Of a stretch of DNA of 64,000 bases, positions 4,729 to 25,160 are shown piece by piece (the stretch's first letter is position 1; every line of letters begins with the position of its first letter). The stretch comes from Desulfobulbus oligotrophicus (GTDB taxonomy: Bacteria > Desulfobacterota > Desulfobulbia > Desulfobulbales > Desulfobulbaceae): the NCBI RefSeq assembly GCF_016446285.1, contig NZ_CP054140.1, positions 62,001-126,000 of the forward strand. The letters run 5' to 3'. The translations under genes and the position numbers were made by a program. The notes below the pieces were generated by a model that was not told where the DNA came from, ran no database searches, and saw only the letters and a program-made list of their open reading frames with translations.

Positions 4729-5556
4729 ATGATAATCACCGGAAAACGAGCCCTGGTTCTGGGGGCTTCCCGCAGTATTGGCCGCGCCATAGCCCGCAAG
4801 CTTGCCGAGCAGGGAGCGCTTCTGATTCTGCCATGGCTTGACTGGCCCGATTCAGTCGCCACGCTTGAGCAGGAATTTGGCGGGAAGGGTTCGGATAACC
4901 TCCTCATGCGTGTCGACGTTCGCAAACCAGAGGAAGTCGCCGGTCTGGCAGCTGCCATTGACAGGCAATACGGAGGGTTGGAGATCCTGATCAACAATAT
5001 TGAACGTGGTGGTATGCCGATCCTCCATGGTGGGTATCACCGTGAGATCAACCATGAACAGTGGCAGCTGGAAATGGACACCACGCTGCATGCCAAATGG
5101 CTCTTATTTGAACATGCCCTGCCCCTGCTCCGCCGCCGTGGCGAAGGCACTGTGGTTAACATCACCTCAATAGCCGGTATTATCGGTCGATCCGGCCCGG
5201 CCGGCCTTCTCTTCAACGACGCTTATGCCGCAGCAAACCGTGGTGCAACCCTGCTGACGGAAACCTGGGCACAGCAGGCCGCTCCAACAGTACGAGTCAA
5301 TGAACTCATGCTGGGACTCATTGACTCCAGACACGGTCCGGGCACCAGGGGATGGGATCTGTTAAGCAGGCAACAGCAGCAGGACCTGCTGACACACACC
5401 CTGTTACGGCGAACTGGAACTCCAGAGGAGGTAGCGCAGGCTGTAGTATTCCTGATCCGCGATGCCGACTTTCTGACGGGAGCGGTTATACGAATGGATG
5501 GAGGGTATATTTTAGGAGGAGAGTATCCGGCGGCAATGCCTGAAGGATATCTGTAA
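4729..5556 (+). CDS. SDR-family oxidoreductase lacking the catalytic lysine
   Basis: 275-residue Rossmann-fold short-chain dehydrogenase. The start ATG 4729 is chosen because GGAGGA lies 8 bases upstream; an ATG at 4705 has no ribosome site. The cofactor loop reads LGASRSIGRAIA, the strand-4 motif is NNIERG instead of NNAG, and the catalytic serine region ITSIAG is present. The active-site tyrosine is kept (TAT at 5224) but the expected YxxxK is YAAAN: AAC encodes Asn where Lys should be. The C-terminus has the usual GAVIRMDGGY. The family normally reduces carbonyls with NAD(P)H; here activity is doubtful and the protein may be a binding or scaffold homologue. Substrate unknown. Confidence 0.85.
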   Translation: MIITGKRALVLGASRSIGRAIARKLAEQGALLILPWLDWPDSVATLEQEFGGKGSDNLLMRVDVRKPEEVAGLAAAIDRQYGGLEILINNIERGGMPILHGGYHREINHEQWQLEMDTTLHAKWLLFEHALPLLRRRGEGTVVNITSIAGIIGRSGPAGLLFNDAYAAANRGATLLTETWAQQAAPTVRVNELMLGLIDSRHGPGTRGWDLLSRQQQQDLLTHTLLRRTGTPEEVAQAVVFLIRDADFLTGAVIRMDGGYILGGEYPAAMPEGYL

Positions 5557-5568
5557 AAAGATGCCGGC

Positions 5569-5826
5569 TCAGCTTTCAAGCACCCAGCCCGGAATATGCC
5601 GCAAAACGTATTCCGTCACCTTTTCTTTTGCAGCCGCGTCGGCTTCATTCACGCCGACAGCACGCATAACCTCATCAAAATCAAACCAGCACAGTTCTTT
5701 ATCCTGTACACTGTACACCGTCAGAATTCGATGATCAGGTTCGTCTATATCCTCTTCCTCTTGGATAGCCGCAACTAAACCTACAGCTTCATCGTAAGGC
5801 AAAAAGCGGAGTTTATCGTCACTCAT
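5569..5826 (-). CDS. Conserved-looking small acidic protein, unknown
   Basis: 85 residues, acidic, with no membrane segment or signal peptide. It has a central acidic run (EEEDIDEPD near 23-31) followed by a predicted beta-hairpin (HRILTVYSVQDKELCWFDFDEV) and a helical tail. It ends 12 bases from the stop of the convergent SDR gene and lies upstream of rpmB on the same strand with about 100 bases between. I do not recognise the family. Composition and codon use look like the neighbours, so it is probably a real gene. Confidence 0.6.
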   Translation of the reverse strand: MSDDKLRFLPYDEAVGLVAAIQEEEDIDEPDHRILTVYSVQDKELCWFDFDEVMRAVGVNEADAAAKEKVTEYVLRHIPGWVLES

Positions 5827-5924
5827 CGTCTAATCGGGCCGTGGTGTTGAACGTGATATCTGACATAAAAAACGGTGACCTGCTGTTGCAACAAGCTCAC
5901 CGTTTTCAGCACAAACAGCTGCGA

Positions 5925-6119
5925 TCAGCTGGGCTTGACCACAGCACCGGAACGGATGCAACGGGTACAGACTTTGACACGAACACTACTGCCGCTGCGC
6001 GTCAGCATCCGCACTCTTTGCAGATTCGGCAACCATCGACGACGGGTTTTATTGTTGGCGTGGCTGACATTATTTCCAGTGGCAGGTCCTTTGCCACAGA
6101 TTTCACAAATACGGGCCAT
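5925..6119 (-). CDS. rpmB: 50S ribosomal protein L28
   Basis: 64 residues, strongly basic, beginning [12 protein letters not shown] and containing the [19 protein letters not shown] block typical of L28, then [12 protein letters not shown]. The paired cysteines (C5, C8 and C52, C55) form a zinc-ribbon version of L28. It is a structural protein of the large ribosomal subunit. The gene stands alone here, as rpmB often does outside the rpmB-rpmG pair. Length is normal for the short L28 type. Confidence 0.95.
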
Positions 6120-6490
6120 GATTCTATCTCCTCAAAAATAGTCGTTTGGAAGTAACAGCGAATAATAGCCGTCGATCAGCAAAAAGCAAGTTTTTTCCAT
6201 GAAAAAAACAGTGACCCGGGTTTCCTGCCGCTGTCCTCCACCAGCACTCTCTGCTGTCTCCTGTCAACTAAGCTCAGACAGCAGTCGCTCTCCCCATCCT
6301 CTTATCCGGCAGCAGGGCAACATCTGCACATTCTTGTAAAAAATTACTCGCCCATTGACTGGTTTTTGCTATAGTTAACCTTACTGTTGTTTGTTGTCAT
6401 CGTTTCCACTTCCAAAACAGGCCGCTGATGTCTGTTTACATCGACAAACAGTCATCAGCATCCATACCATCACCCCGCAAGGAAGAACAT
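6120..6490. other. Gene-free region between divergent rpmB and cdaA
   Basis: About 370 bases between divergent starts. It must hold both promoters, but I find no convincing -35/-10 pair. A second possible start for the downstream gene (ATG 6428) lies inside it and has no ribosome site. No repeat or RNA element recognised. Confidence 0.5.
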
Positions 6491-20266: not shown

Positions 20267-20370
20267 CTGGTGTCCTGTATGGTTAGTGCAGTCAGGCAAC
20301 TTCAAGGGTTGCAGGCGCAGTCTTCCTTCTTCTGACCTCGCAATTCTGCCATATGGCTTCAGAAGTTCCT
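20267..20370 (-). mobile_element. MITE-like repeat, copy 3 (truncated)
   Basis: Reverse-orientation copy of the 143-bp unit starting CTGGTGTCCTG; it stops at AGAAGTTCCTGG and runs into a half palindrome (ATTCCGCGACT), so one inverted end is missing. Confidence 0.65.
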
Positions 20371-20382
20371 GGTTATTCCGCG

Positions 20383-20802
20383 ACTGTCATGGAGTCCATG
20401 TTGGCCTATCAAGGATGATAGATTCTGCGACTACGGCCGCTGCGCGTCCTTGCGCAGAATGACCGTTGCAGGGTGACAGGGTGATGTTTGAGTCAGATTG
20501 GGGTCATTCCGCGCGTAGTCGCGGAATCCAGTTGAATGCAGGAACGCCATATGGAAGCTGAACACGCTCCCCACATCTAGCCAGCAAACGAAATGGAATG
20601 CTCTACACCACCGGGAGTGACCAGTAATCTGGAACGCCGTATGCATGAACATAAAAACCAAGGCACACACTGAAAGCTTCAGCGCAAAATATACTGTTCA
20701 TATGCCGGCTTGGTACAAATCTGGAGAAGATATCCATGCTGCCATTGAGTTGGAGAAAAAATTAAAAACAGAAAGAGAACCTGGATTGTATGGATTCCGC
20801 GA
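20383..20802 (+). repeat. 420-bp tandem duplication, unit 1
   Basis: Period 420 bp: GGCCTATCAAGGATGAT occurs at 20403 and again at 20823. Each unit holds one palindrome (20503-20528 in this one) and one GIY-YIG remnant (20577-20790). Confidence 0.75.
20577..20790 (+). pseudogene. GIY-YIG nuclease remnant, frameshifted
   Basis: Encodes LASKRNGMLY, then after a shift GVTSNLERRMHEHKNQGTH, then after another shift TESFSAKYTVHMPAWYKSG and EDIHAAIELEKKLKTE, in the order found in short GIY-YIG nucleases (YVYLLAS...GVT.dL.rR..EHK...). At least two frameshifts and loss of the C-terminus make it non-functional. Confidence 0.75.
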
Positions 20803-21213
20803 CTATCATGGAGTCCACATTTGGCCTATCAAGGATGATGGATTCTGCGACTACGGCCGCTGCGCGTCCTTGCGCAGAATGACCGTTGCAGGGTGACAGG
20901 GTGATGTTTGAGTCAGATTGGGGTCATTCCGCGCGTAGTCGCGGAATCCAGTTGAATACAGAGGAACACCATATGGAAGATAAACACACCTCCACATCTA
21001 GCCAGCAAACGAAATGGAACGCTTTACACCGGGGTGACCAATAATCTGGAACGCCGTATGTATGAACATAAAAATCAAGGCACACACTGAAAGCTTCAGC
21101 GCAAAATATACTGTTCATATGCCGGCTTGGTACAAATCTGGAGAAGATATCCATGCTGCCATTGAGTTGGAGAAAAAATTAAAAACAGAAGGAGAGCTTG
21201 GATTGTATGGATT
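20803..21213 (+). repeat. 420-bp tandem duplication, unit 2
   Basis: Second copy of the unit at 20383-20802, about 95% identical by eye, ending in a reverse-form palindrome at 21210-21235. Small deletions distinguish it from unit 1. Confidence 0.75.
20998..21206 (+). pseudogene. GIY-YIG nuclease remnant, second copy
   Basis: Encodes LASKRNGTLYTGVTNNLERR and MYEHKNQGTH in one frame, then a stop and a shift into TESFSAKYTVHMPAWYKSGE. It has one fewer frameshift than copy 1, so it is nearer to the ancestral gene and shows that copy 1 decayed after the duplication. Confidence 0.75.
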
Positions 21214-21256
21214 CCGCGACTATCGCGCGGAATGACGATGGAGCCACAGTATGATC

Positions 21257-21398
21257 CTGGTGTCCTGTGTGGTTCGTTCAATCAGGCAATTTCAAGGGTT
21301 GCAGGCGCAGCCTTCCTTCTTCTGACCTTGTAATTCTGACATATGGCTTCAGAAGTTCCTTGAAATTAAAGGACAACATGAACCAAGCAGGACACCAG
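21257..21398 (-). mobile_element. MITE-like repeat, copy 4 (complete)
   Basis: Perfect 11-bp terminal inverted repeats CTGGTGTCCTG (21257-21267) and CAGGACACCAG (21388-21398). The best preserved copy of the family. Confidence 0.75.
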
Positions 21399-21653: not shown

Positions 21654-22010
21654 TTAACGGGCAAATCCTCCGATCGGCGTCATATACGTGCCGCCAAAGC
21701 CCTTCAATGCCTCTTTAAGACTGCTTGCTGGATTGCCATAGACAACAAATGCGGTGGCATTACCAAGAGCCATCAGCCTGGCGGCAAACTTTTCATTGAA
21801 TGTTTTCAGATGGGTTAAAGCAGAATCAGAGTCTGTATACCTTTCATAAATGTGGCAGATCGTTTGATTCTCATTCAGAGTCCATTCATACGCCAAAGTA
21901 CCGGACTCGTTTGCTGTTGATTCAACCAGCTCGGGCATCAATGCCTTCAAATCATCAGAGCTACCCTTTGTCAGGGTTAATTCAAATATCCATGATACGT
22001 TGTTACTCAT
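21654..22010 (-). CDS. Antibiotic biosynthesis monooxygenase-fold (ABM) protein
   Basis: 118 residues of the ferredoxin-like ABM dimer fold: WIFELTLTKGSSDDLKAL, then SGTLAYEWTLNENQT, ICHIYERYTDSDSALTHL and FNEKFAARLM. Members are cofactor-free monooxygenases on quinol-type substrates, haem-degrading enzymes, or have no known activity. Last gene of the ArsR-controlled operon; 47 bases downstream of the VOC gene. An oxygen-using enzyme would be odd in a strict anaerobe, so a binding or detoxification role is possible. Confidence 0.8.
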   Translation of the reverse strand: MSNNVSWIFELTLTKGSSDDLKALMPELVESTANESGTLAYEWTLNENQTICHIYERYTDSDSALTHLKTFNEKFAARLMALGNATAFVVYGNPASSLKEALKGFGGTYMTPIGGFAR

Positions 22011-22057
22011 TGCTCAGTTCCTCCTGCAAATAAGTTAGTATTCATCGAACCTATCAA

Positions 22058-22453
22058 TCAAAGTTCATTAAAAAATTCAATAATCTCTCCGGCAACTCCA
22101 ATCACAAAGGCAAAACATACAGGATATGGCTTTTCCGAAGGAATAAACACCGGCCCCGACTCCTGCAGCACTGCAAGCCCCTGCTTACGGCAAGCTGCTA
22201 CACAGGCATCGACATCATCTGTGGCTAGTGCAATATGATCAACCTGCCCGGGCCTGCGCCCTGGTTCAGCATCAGCAAAGAGTTCCAGCAACCCACTGCC
22301 GGTATCAATCATACACACAGCATACCGCCCGTTTCCCCAGCTCCTGACCCGGCGCATACCCAATATATCGCAGTAAAACGATGCGGTACGGTTCATTTCG
22401 TCTTCACCCACACAGCGCAGCGCTGTATGATGAATCCCCTTAATCAGGCTCAT
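22058..22453 (-). CDS. VOC (glyoxalase/dioxygenase) family protein
   Basis: 131 residues with two beta-alpha-beta-beta-beta modules. Candidate metal ligands: H10 in IKGIHHTAL, E (LLELFAD), H73 in VDHIALATDD and E near the end (GEIIEFFN). This set matches glyoxalase I-like and fosfomycin-resistance-like VOC proteins. It lies 15 bases after the second radical SAM gene and is the fourth gene of the ArsR operon. Substrate unknown; a role with thiol or toxic small molecules is plausible from the ArsR context. Confidence 0.85.
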   Translation of the reverse strand: MSLIKGIHHTALRCVGEDEMNRTASFYCDILGMRRVRSWGNGRYAVCMIDTGSGLLELFADAEPGRRPGQVDHIALATDDVDACVAACRKQGLAVLQESGPVFIPSEKPYPVCFAFVIGVAGEIIEFFNEL

Positions 22454-22468
22454 GTAGTTCCTCCTGCC

Positions 22469-23359
22469 TTAAAGATGATCGCGGCGGAACGTTTGGCGAA
22501 AGGCTTCATCATCCATGGTATCAATGCTGTGCTGCAAGCGTTTGAGCATGGTTTCTTTCTCATCCCGCAGCAGACCGGCAATCTTTGTCGAATCAAGGGA
22601 ATGCGCCGCCCATAAATAGGTGTCCGGAAGATCCAACAGTTCGATAAAGTGTTTTTGGGCCATTAATACTTCCGATTCCGGTGCCGCTTCAAAGATGCCG
22701 TTCTTTACATCCTGCTCCAGTTTTGTTCCGGGGAATACCGCCATTGTGGTGAGTATCACCATATCCGGCTTTATGGCATTCTCCAGCTCTGCGGTCTCCT
22801 CTGCTTCCTGCAAAAGCTTTCCCTTGCCTGCTGCTCCGGGCATGAGCATATCACGATGACGGATGCCGGCTGCATTGAGCCTTAGGCACTGCGTTTTCGC
22901 CTCTTCTGCGGTATTGCCCTTGTTCAGAAAGGCAAGAGCTTCTTCTGAACCGGTTTCAATGCCCACATAGAGATCATTAACCCCCAGATCAGCCAATTGT
23001 TTCAGGTACTCATCCGTCTTACTTGTGATGTTCCGCACGGCGGCATACATCGTAATCACCCGGACGTTTGGACAATACGTACGAATCAGATTGATTATGG
23101 GTTCCAACTTGCCTGCGGACAGTGCAAAGGGATCCGCCCCCACAAGATAAACGCGTTCCAAATGGTCCATAAATCGTTTGTTGTATTTTTGGGCCTTGCT
23201 GAGAAATTCCTCGATGTCGGCGAGCGGCAGCGTCCGAAAACGTACACCCTCGTACATATTACAAAAACGACAACTGTTGTGCGTGCATCCTTCTGTCACC
23301 GGAATCAGAAAAGTCTCTGCTTCCATCGGTGGCCGGTACACGGTGCCATTGTATTCCAT
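22469..23359 (-). CDS. Radical SAM protein (CX4CX2C type)
   Basis: 296 residues. The cluster motif is CTHNSCRFC near 29-37, spaced CX4CX2C rather than the usual CX3CX2C, followed by MYEGVRFRTLP. SAM-binding features follow: VYLVGADPFAL, VRVITMYAAVRN and LYVGIETGSEEAL. The C-terminus is helical without extra cysteine clusters. It is a paralogue of the neighbouring gene at 23423-24301 (same motif spacing and ordering, roughly 30% identity by eye). The pair resembles COG1032-like proteins of unknown substrate. Operon neighbours are ArsR, VOC and ABM proteins. Confidence 0.9.
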   Translation of the reverse strand: MEYNGTVYRPPMEAETFLIPVTEGCTHNSCRFCNMYEGVRFRTLPLADIEEFLSKAQKYNKRFMDHLERVYLVGADPFALSAGKLEPIINLIRTYCPNVRVITMYAAVRNITSKTDEYLKQLADLGVNDLYVGIETGSEEALAFLNKGNTAEEAKTQCLRLNAAGIRHRDMLMPGAAGKGKLLQEAEETAELENAIKPDMVILTTMAVFPGTKLEQDVKNGIFEAAPESEVLMAQKHFIELLDLPDTYLWAAHSLDSTKIAGLLRDEKETMLKRLQHSIDTMDDEAFRQTFRRDHL

Positions 23360-23422
23360 ATCAGTTCTCCTGTTCTATCGCTGTGACTGCAACTCTTTGC
23401 GCACGCGTTTTTTGTGTTGTCT

Positions 23423-24301
23423 TTATAGACTCATGACCCGCTTGCGGAACCCATCCAACCCCCCTTCTTTGGCAATGTCGATTTGCTCCTGCAGGAGTTC
23501 AAGCATATTTTGCTTGTCCTCCGGCAGCTTTCCTCTGATCGGCACAGGGATGGTCACATGCTCGGCCTTGAATACGGTGTCGATATCCAGGCAGCGGATA
23601 AACTCATACATTTCTTCCAAACGTTCCACCTCGGTCGCTTCCGCAAAGAGTCCTTTTTGTTTGTCTTTGGAAAGCGGTGTGTCAGGGAACAGGGTCAGTT
23701 CAGAGGCGTAGACCAGCGTTGGATGAAGCTGATTGATGACCTTTGCGGATTCTCTCGCATGGCTCAGGCCGTAATTGTAACCGCCAAGCCCGCCTAAAAA
23801 ATTGACAATGTATTTCATGCCGGCTTCATCCAGCTTGGAGAGCTGTTCCACAACAACCTCTGCTTTATAGCCTTTGTTCATTCTTTCCAAGAGCTTGTCG
23901 TCACCGGATTCATTGCCGAAGTAAAAATTGCTATAACCAACCTCGGCTAATCGGCGCAGCTGCTCCACGGTCTTGTTTCTGACGTTATCAACACGCGCAT
24001 ACCCACCGATGCTCTCTACGGACGGCAGGTATTGATGAATCAGCTCGGCAACCTGCATTAACTTGTTGTACGGCAGAATAAAGGGATCCGCTCCCTGCAG
24101 AAAAATTCTTTGAAATTTCCACCCCCTGTCTCTGATCTCCTTGATGTCCTCTTCGATTTCTTCCATTGGCGAGACTGCAAAAGGCGCATCCTTATAGAAG
24201 GTGCAGAACTTGCACGAAGCATGGGAACACCCCGAAGTCACCTGTAAAAACCCATCCATTGCTTCATACGGCGGACGATTGATGCCACTTGAAAAATGCA
24301 T
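23423..24301 (-). CDS. Radical SAM protein (CX4CX2C type), first of the pair
   Basis: 292 residues. Motif CSHASCKFC followed by TFYKDAPF, again CX4CX2C; then FLQGADPFILPYN and SNFYFGNESGDDKLLERMN. A glycine-rich stretch FLGGLGGYNYG (about 205-215) is unusual. The start is ATG 24301, with AAGGAG 8 bases upstream; GTG 24310 would overlap that site. The gene begins directly downstream of a perfect operator (24322-24349), so it has its own regulated promoter apart from that of arsR. It is paralogous to the next gene, suggesting either a two-enzyme step or two related substrates. Confidence 0.9.
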   Translation of the reverse strand: MHFSSGINRPPYEAMDGFLQVTSGCSHASCKFCTFYKDAPFAVSPMEEIEEDIKEIRDRGWKFQRIFLQGADPFILPYNKLMQVAELIHQYLPSVESIGGYARVDNVRNKTVEQLRRLAEVGYSNFYFGNESGDDKLLERMNKGYKAEVVVEQLSKLDEAGMKYIVNFLGGLGGYNYGLSHARESAKVINQLHPTLVYASELTLFPDTPLSKDKQKGLFAEATEVERLEEMYEFIRCLDIDTVFKAEHVTIPVPIRGKLPEDKQNMLELLQEQIDIAKEGGLDGFRKRVMSL

Positions 24302-24321
24302 GTGATACACTCCTTACATAT

Positions 24322-24349
24322 TGACATATCGATATTTGTAGATATGTCA
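24322..24349. promoter_or_regulatory. ArsR operator, site 1 (upstream of radical SAM genes)
   Basis: Perfect inverted repeat TGACATATC (24322-24330), 10-base spacer, GATATGTCA (24341-24349). On the minus strand it also offers ATGACA-16-TATGTC as promoter elements. It lies 20 bases before the radical SAM start. The same half-sites with the same 10-base spacer occur upstream of arsR (site 2). Confidence 0.75.
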
Positions 24350-24423
24350 TGTCTAAAAAAAGAACAGGTTGCCCTGTCCATCTCCTGGAATAACTGTTCA
24401 GATAGTTCTACCGCGTTGTCGTC

Positions 24424-24750
24424 CTATACCTCCATTTTAATGTGCTCGATCAGCGCCTGTATCGTTTCTTCATTGCGACGGTAATAGGTCCATTTCCCGT
24501 GCCGTTCAGCCGTTACCAGCCGTGCCCTGAGCATGATATCCAGATAATGCGAAACCGTGGATTGAGAGACCCCCGCCTTTTCCTGTATGCTGCCGACACA
24601 AACGCCTCCTTTGAGTTCGACTGTGTCTGCCAGATGCTCCCCTTGCGGCGGAAAGCACTCATCCGGTGTTTTGAGCCATTTCAGGATACTCAGTCTCGTT
24701 TCGTTGGACAGTGCTTTGAAAATTTCGATTAACTGTTTTTCGTTGATCAT
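24424..24750 (-). CDS. ArsR/SmtB-family transcriptional regulator
   Basis: 108-residue winged helix protein. LIEIFKALSNETRLSILKWL opens the fold; the recognition helix is SQSTVSHYLDIML, and the wing is RHGKWTYYRR. Cysteines lie at PDECFPP (near 30) and GGVCVGSI (near 51), in the region where ArsR members bind metals or sense thiols; the classical ELCVCDL motif is absent. Two operators with identical half-sites in front of it and of the radical SAM genes argue for autoregulation and control of the operon. The start ATG 24750 has no ribosome site and lies where transcription should begin, so the mRNA is probably leaderless. Inducer unknown. Confidence 0.93.
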   Translation of the reverse strand: MINEKQLIEIFKALSNETRLSILKWLKTPDECFPPQGEHLADTVELKGGVCVGSIQEKAGVSQSTVSHYLDIMLRARLVTAERHGKWTYYRRNEETIQALIEHIKMEV

Positions 24751-24755
24751 GGCTT

Positions 24756-24784
24756 TATCATATCTATAATTACCGATATGTCAA
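24756..24784 (-). promoter_or_regulatory. ArsR operator site 2 with overlapping arsR promoter
   Basis: Half-sites TATCATATC (24756-24764; 7 of 9 match to site 1) and GATATGTCA (24775-24783) with the same 10-base spacer. On the minus strand TTGACA (24784-24779), 16 bases, TATGAT (24762-24757) form a strong promoter whose start would fall at about 24750, the A of the arsR ATG. Confidence 0.7.
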
Positions 24785-25160
24785 TATGTCTTTTAAATTT
24801 ATTTTTTGCACAGCGCTACACCCAAAAAATAGGATCCAGTGGTCATGCTGAATAATCTGGTGAAATAAACGCCTTCAAATAAAGAACCACGTGGTTTCTA
24901 TGTCATGAAGCAGCTTTTGATAAATAAAAAGATCCTCTTCCTTGAATACGCCCCTGATGGTGACTGTCGGTTTCTTTTTGATATTCCCTGACCGTCTTTA
25001 CCGCAATTGCCGCTGCTCTTTGATTCGGAAAACGAAGTTCATCCGTGCTGATACAGCACAAGGCGATTGTATTCAACCGCTTTCTGGCCTGCCGGTTCCA
25101 GACAGGGACGATAACAGGCTGCCGGTAGCCTGCAAGCCTGTCCCTGAACCTTTCCCTATT
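24785..25160. other. Gene-poor region
   Basis: Between the arsR promoter and leader repeat copy 3. A minus-strand open frame (24903-25193) starts inside the repeat and encodes a basic peptide with RFPNQRAAAIAVKT; it has no family I recognise and is probably a remnant. No intact gene supported. Confidence 0.5.

Follow-up and report, generated by a model that had tools for sequence, protein, structure and literature searches.

Organization of the cassette

The stretch of Desulfobulbus oligotrophicus DNA analyzed here, termed the window, is 64,000 nucleotides in length (NCBI RefSeq assembly GCF_016446285.1, contig NZ_CP054140.1, positions 62,001 to 126,000 of the forward strand). At window positions 21654-24784 it carries a compact cassette composed of an ArsR-type regulator gene, two radical S-adenosylmethionine (SAM) enzyme genes, rSAM1 and rSAM2, and the genes of a VOC and an ABM protein. 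Two operators of common design, O1 and O2, flank arsR, and the regulator very likely controls both itself and the paired radical SAM genes through these two sites, as two transcription units. The features of the cassette are as follows.

24757-24784, minus strand: sigma-70-like arsR promoter, TTGACA-N16-TATGAT, with 11 of 12 consensus matches
24756-24783, no strand: operator O1, core ATATC-N10-GATAT, contained in the arsR promoter
24424-24750, minus strand: arsR, ArsR/SmtB-type repressor of 108 amino acids (PF01022, 1e-8)
24362-24379, minus strand: intrinsic terminator, GGACAGGGCAACCTGTTC-TTTTTTT, 3' of arsR and just before O2
24322-24349, no strand: operator O2, TGACATATCGATATTTGTAGATATGTCA, a perfect 9+10+9 palindrome preceding rSAM1
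23423-24301, minus strand: rSAM1, radical SAM enzyme of ~290 amino acids (PF04055, 2.8e-18), with a CX4CX2C motif (CSHASCKFC)
22469-23359, minus strand: rSAM2, second member of this radical SAM family (PF04055, 1.6e-18), with CTHNSCRFC
22058-22453, minus strand: VOC (glyoxalase-fold) protein (PF00903, 4.5e-11)
21654-22010, minus strand: ABM-fold (antibiotic biosynthesis/quinol monooxygenase-like) protein (PF03992, 6.2e-8)

The five genes are all intact, each with a good ribosome-binding site, and none of the regulatory elements (promoter, terminator and the two operators) has been lost. The start codon of rSAM1 is probably the ATG at 24301, which is preceded by the ribosome-binding site AGGAG and agrees with homologues that begin MHFSSG, rather than the GTG at 24310, a possible alternative that would extend the open reading frame to 23423-24310.

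Two operators and two transcription units

The original prediction held that arsR and the radical SAM genes share one operator design, and both sites were confirmed. O2 fits the motif then proposed perfectly and O1 departs from it by two mismatches, in the left outer arm (TATCATATC), while the core ATATC-N10-GATAT is common to the two operators and perfect in both. This motif would be expected by chance only 0.02 times per window (dinucleotide shuffles), and no third match with up to three mismatches occurs beyond O1 and O2 in the 3,102,012-base genome. A genome-wide ArsR regulon was considered and rejected, as there is no third operator. O1 lies inside the arsR promoter, over the stretch between its -35 and -10 boxes, and the agreement of its TGACA with the motif is in part that of the -35 box. 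O2 is followed by a ribosome-binding site and then by the rSAM1 ATG. With the terminator and O2 both situated between arsR and rSAM1, the cassette is therefore read as two transcription units with one operator each.

Conservation of the layout

Among 84,980 species genomes, a scan for rSAM1 returned 25 loci. The gene set is found again in other phyla, complete with its two operators, as the original prediction had proposed to check, and this comparative sequence evidence lends strong support to a two-operator regulon that covers the paired radical SAM genes. A Eubacterium metagenome-assembled genome (L040) carries ArsR, rSAM1, rSAM2 and VOC genes in the identical order, with 78.7, 83.6, 79.4 and 80.0% identity, respectively, to those of the window. 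ArsR also adjoins rSAM1 in L050, L060 and L061, as well as in L042, where the pair lies at the end of the contig. The ArsR profile alone is present in 34 of 200 Negativicutes genomes, and a radical SAM gene of the family lies downstream of arsR in 12 of the 20 Negativicutes loci examined. At one of these 12 (L081/L111, on G676:C1), what looks by eye like an IS200/IS605-type transposase gene pair has come to lie between arsR and rSAM1, splitting the regulator from its target.

The operator was surveyed in 33 ArsR loci as ATATC-N10-GATAT with at most one mismatch. It is found upstream of arsR in 29 of these loci (0.8 in shuffles); in 21 it occupies the gap between arsR and the gene that follows (0.57 in shuffles). 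Spacers of 9 or 11 in place of N10 gave no matches in the same loci. Loci of Desulfobacterota, Bacillota and Pseudomonadota share the operator in its sequence, spacing and placement. Of 16 arsR-rSAM gaps, 14 contain a terminator-like hairpin ahead of the second operator, compared with 0.4 in shuffles. Within the 200 Negativicutes genomes, the 13 with rSAM1 overlap those with ArsR in 11 cases (Fisher test, 4.5e-8, uncorrected for kinship).

The regulator and its signal

The ArsR/SmtB-type assignment follows from the HTH_5 winged helix (PF01022), on which the protein scores 35.3 bits against a cut-off of 22, and the regulator further matches the 'metalloregulator' model NF033788 with 72 bits (cut-off 55). 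Its sole conserved cysteine, Cys51, is kept in 32 of 33 relatives and directly precedes helix α3 (residues 52-59) in the AlphaFold2 model (predicted local distance difference test score, pLDDT, 88). The CxC motif that canonical As(III)-sensing ArsR proteins carry in helix α3 is absent; CVG stands in its place, and there is no second cysteine. The α5 Asp and His ligands of the SmtB/CzrA type are likewise missing at the two positions that could be aligned, where D104 and H106 of SmtB correspond to E94 and T96, with SmtB H117 and E120 falling outside the aligned stretch. Nor is there the cysteine pair in α2 and α5 that typifies the persulfide sensors BigR, SqrR and HlyU, and the protein scores 30.4 bits on the BigR model, for which the cut-off is 155. 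In a published network of the ArsR family, CxC marks the metal and metalloid cluster and the α2/α5 cysteine pair marks the persulfide sensors (PMC10509353). The metals, organoarsenicals and reactive sulfur species originally suggested as inducers are accordingly disfavored, the first two for want of ligand sites and the last, in the BigR manner, for want of a cysteine pair.

Plasmids of Niallia, Rhizobium, Pseudomonas and Polaromonas carry members of the ArsR subfamily with 50-61% identity, and the two-operator layout often recurs there. Their neighbors encode MDR alcohol/quinone-type dehydrogenases, LLM oxidoreductases, an alkene reductase, a quinol monooxygenase (ABM) and a DMT transporter, and the relatives in Bacillota also adjoin old yellow enzyme, MFS and FMN-reductase genes. 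Because the subfamily thus keeps company with old yellow enzymes, quinone and alcohol dehydrogenases, flavin reductases and efflux genes, its neighborhoods suggest that the inducer is an organic electrophile or a redox-active molecule.

The radical SAM enzymes

rSAM1 and rSAM2 share 35% identity and belong to the radical SAM superfamily (67-68 bits on PF04055, cut-off 29.5), although both carry CX4CX2C rather than the canonical CX3CX2C. No named radical SAM family of NCBIfam was reached, the best being TIGR04479 (42.9 bits against a cut-off of 600), and Pfam scans found no SPASM domain in either enzyme. The AlphaFold2 model of rSAM2 (pLDDT 89) is a plain radical SAM barrel whose best structural match is MgmA, the methyl-coenzyme M reductase glutamine methylase (PDB 9ccb; Z 19.0 over 254 residues, 18% identity); MiaB, Elp3 and HemN score nearly as well. 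Searching the sequences of solved structures with a radical SAM profile gave only the distant Elp3, OxsB and MgmA. As many radical SAM folds rank so closely together, no function is drawn from the structural match. MgmA carries a B12-binding domain (TIGR04014), which rSAM2 lacks, and the likeness is one of fold that implies no shared function.

The uncharacterized CX4CX2C family is represented in 55 of the 56 relatives searched from the order of the host. The host genome itself holds about ten members, in 10 places and with no named function. A part in heme degradation, considered on account of HutW-like hits and the ABM fold, was rejected, as the HutW scores of 20-30 bits fall far short of the cut-off of 400 and the neighborhood has no heme genes. 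A literature search returned nothing on a CX4CX2C radical SAM system, nor on ArsR regulators together with radical SAM enzymes or with ribosomally synthesized and post-translationally modified peptides (RiPPs).

Association with ACGX islands

The original prediction knew of no named pathway for such a gene set. That statement is correct only in part, as homologues of rSAM1, rSAM2, VOC and ABM occur in or beside islands of the ACGX RiPP type (TIGR04340), an association that would narrow the function. In Selenomonas and its relatives, rSAM1 and VOC genes are found in operons headed by an ACGX-repeat peptide and a TIGR04340 SPASM maturase; such operons also hold nitroreductase, EFR1 ferredoxin, PCC-domain, α/β-hydrolase and SnoaL genes, and the window VOC protein is 62-64% identical to theirs. 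The ACGX operon of L042 contains a truncated rSAM2. Two Negativicutes contigs join the parts. In L123, ABM, ArsR, rSAM1, EFR1 and rSAM2 genes are followed further along by HxlR, ACGX, SPASM and MDR genes, and its rSAM1 and rSAM2 are 69 and 82% identical to those of the window. L124 carries HxlR, ACGX, SPASM, MDR, SIR2, macrodomain, VOC and ABM genes and, behind them, rSAM1, ArsR and old yellow enzyme genes, the ABM proteins of contig and window being 57% identical. Seven of the 13 Negativicutes genomes with rSAM1 are among the 12 with ACGX (Fisher test, 5.2e-7, n = 200, uncorrected for kinship). A literature search found no paper on the ACGX RiPP system or TIGR04340.

The host possesses a second locus of this kind at ~1.63 Mb, composed of HxlR, an rSAM1 paralogue (64%), an ACGX-type peptide, a maturase gene, a nitroreductase and a cupin, with the peptide and maturase at ~1.630-1.631 Mb of G000:C1. 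The TIGR04340 maturase (positions 5158-6022, minus strand, of L024, which is G000:C1:1625000-1638000) is spread over two reading frames and misses ~40 residues, and is a probable pseudogene; the ACGX-type peptide (6114-6308) and the rSAM1 paralogue beside it are intact.

Two further traits of these islands were observed. The HxlR gene is divergent from or beside the ACGX peptide gene in L123, L124, L126, L130, L131 and L024, and the HxlR-ACGX intergenic regions share similar GTACGCAC...GTTAC boxes, which are likely to be the HxlR operator of ACGX systems. SIR2-type and macrodomain genes, either both or the macrodomain alone, lie by the ACGX or ArsR loci of L062, L098, L124, L126, L131 and L040, hinting at reversible ADP-ribosylation tied to a stress system.

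Origin of the cassette

A dsrA gene (581 bits) marks the host as a sulfate reducer. When 193 further genomes of the order were searched with the ArsR at E 1e-12, and 296 further sampled genomes of the Desulfobacterota at 1e-20, neither set yielded a match; viral contigs held no relative of it either. The nearest relatives of the cassette are from gut and rumen Bacillota. One further feature lies upstream of arsR.

24963-25088, minus strand: remnant of a macrodomain (protein-ADP-ribose hydrolase) gene

This remnant resembles the macrodomain protein of L062 (tblastn 1e-9, 60% over 42 amino acids), and an intact macrodomain homologue lies upstream of arsR in L040. Given the absence of this ArsR from the other sampled Desulfobacterota, the closeness of Bacillota and the remnant upstream of arsR, the cassette was probably acquired horizontally, as part of a longer island. 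A block of direct repeats is also present near the cassette, at window positions 20267-21367, with copies of 111-194 nucleotides, spacings of ~420 and ~990, and 89-99% identity; its translated pieces resemble, by eye only, fragments of a degenerate GIY-YIG endonuclease.

Interpretation and alternatives

Taken as a whole, the locus may be an imported, inducible small-molecule cassette, repressed by ArsR at O1 and O2, responsive to an electrophile or redox signal and devoted to radical SAM chemistry, a reading with about an even chance of being correct. An ArsR dimer would sit on O1, inside the promoter of its own gene, and on O2, just before rSAM1, and so repress two terminator-separated units, arsR alone and rSAM1-rSAM2-VOC-ABM. 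From the neighborhoods we infer, as the most likely inducer, an organic electrophile or a redox-active molecule of the quinone, enone or nitro type, which would modify the regulator at, or bind near, Cys51 at helix α3 and bring about release of the DNA. Under strictly anaerobic conditions, rSAM1 and rSAM2, together with VOC and ABM, may then transform the inducer or, alternatively, a metabolite derived from a peptide of the ACGX RiPP type; the cassette itself would be a mobile accessory of larger ACGX islands.

Several points weigh against this interpretation. The neighboring genes vary, and the inducer class is argued by association; the likeness to the regulators CyeR and PyeR, discussed below, is drawn from neighboring genes and the one-cysteine design only; and the closest solved structure to modeled rSAM2 is 18% identical. 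Furthermore, six Negativicutes genomes possess ArsR and rSAM1 without TIGR04340, as do the L040, L050 and L061 assemblies with the ArsR cassette; in this host at least, the product cannot depend on the maturase, which is broken. The six genomes indicate that the cassette can stand alone and that its ACGX link is not obligatory.

The same genomes and assemblies bear on the possibility that the cassette makes or tailors the ACGX product in trans, with rSAM1 and rSAM2 modifying the peptide or a derived metabolite. The presence of rSAM1, VOC and in places rSAM2 inside ACGX operons of Selenomonas and others, the joining of parts on single contigs in L123 and L124, and the second host locus all speak for it; the lack of a SPASM domain in both enzymes, the cassettes without TIGR04340 and the broken host maturase speak against it, and it is best regarded as a possible, if doubtful, account. 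Radical SAM enzymes are known in arsenolipid, arsenosugar and arsinothricin pathways, and this, with the ArsR/SmtB fold and the NF033788 match, could suggest a metal, arsenic or organoarsenical sensor driving detoxification of the arsenic type. Such a sensor is improbable, since the lone Cys51 and the substituted SmtB positions leave it without ligands, no arsenic-related family appears among the NCBIfam hits of any cassette gene, and no arsenic or metal genes lie beside the relatives examined; an arsenic pathway is rejected on these grounds. A sulfate-reducing host and a regulator with a thiol would suit a persulfide sensor of the BigR/SqrR/HlyU kind, but such sensors require a pair of cysteines and a single one is conserved here, the BigR model is far from reached, and inspection of the neighbors revealed no persulfide dioxygenase, sulfurtransferase or YeeE-type genes, making this very unlikely. 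That the cassette is an imported relic, partly decayed and no longer functional in the host, might be supposed from the macrodomain remnant, the frameshifted second ACGX locus and the absence of ArsR from the other sampled Desulfobacterota, yet its five intact genes and preserved regulatory sites render it most improbable.

If the electrophile/redox interpretation is extended to the ACGX islands, these may constitute an electrophile and redox-stress system of strict anaerobes, in which a SPASM-matured, cysteine-rich ACGS-repeat peptide is tailored or used by rSAM1, rSAM2, VOC and ABM under thiol-type regulators (HxlR for the peptide and the one-cysteine ArsR for the module), alongside quinone/nitro reductases and SIR2/macrodomain genes. 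The cassette of the window would be its self-standing, transferable tailoring and sensing half; this extension is speculative and rather unlikely to hold. More immediately, two well-defined operators offer an inducible handle on an uncharacterized radical SAM family of the host's order and of gut and rumen anaerobes that is now tied to the ACGX RiPP system, and the identity of the inducer would point straight to the substrate class.

Comparison with known systems

Homologues of the cassette genes other than arsR populate the islands of the ACGX RiPP system, defined by its TIGR04340 SPASM maturase and ACGX-repeat peptide, from which the window differs in having an open reading frame for neither. 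Among regulators, PyeR of Pseudomonas aeruginosa (PA4354), a non-classical ArsR protein, autorepresses pyeRM-xenB, a detoxification operon with MFS and xenobiotic reductase genes (PMC7950407). MFS and old yellow enzyme genes also adjoin relatives of the present ArsR, whereas the PyeR operon is without radical SAM, VOC or ABM genes. CyeR of Corynebacterium glutamicum shares the ArsR fold and regulates the old yellow enzyme gene cye1 in response to a redox-type signal, acting via one key cysteine in the α3 region (PMC8960804). The present ArsR has one conserved cysteine, and its relatives likewise adjoin old yellow enzyme genes; the targets in the present cassette are instead radical SAM enzymes, in strict anaerobes. 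What appears new here is a putative non-metal ArsR-type switch set over radical SAM enzymes.

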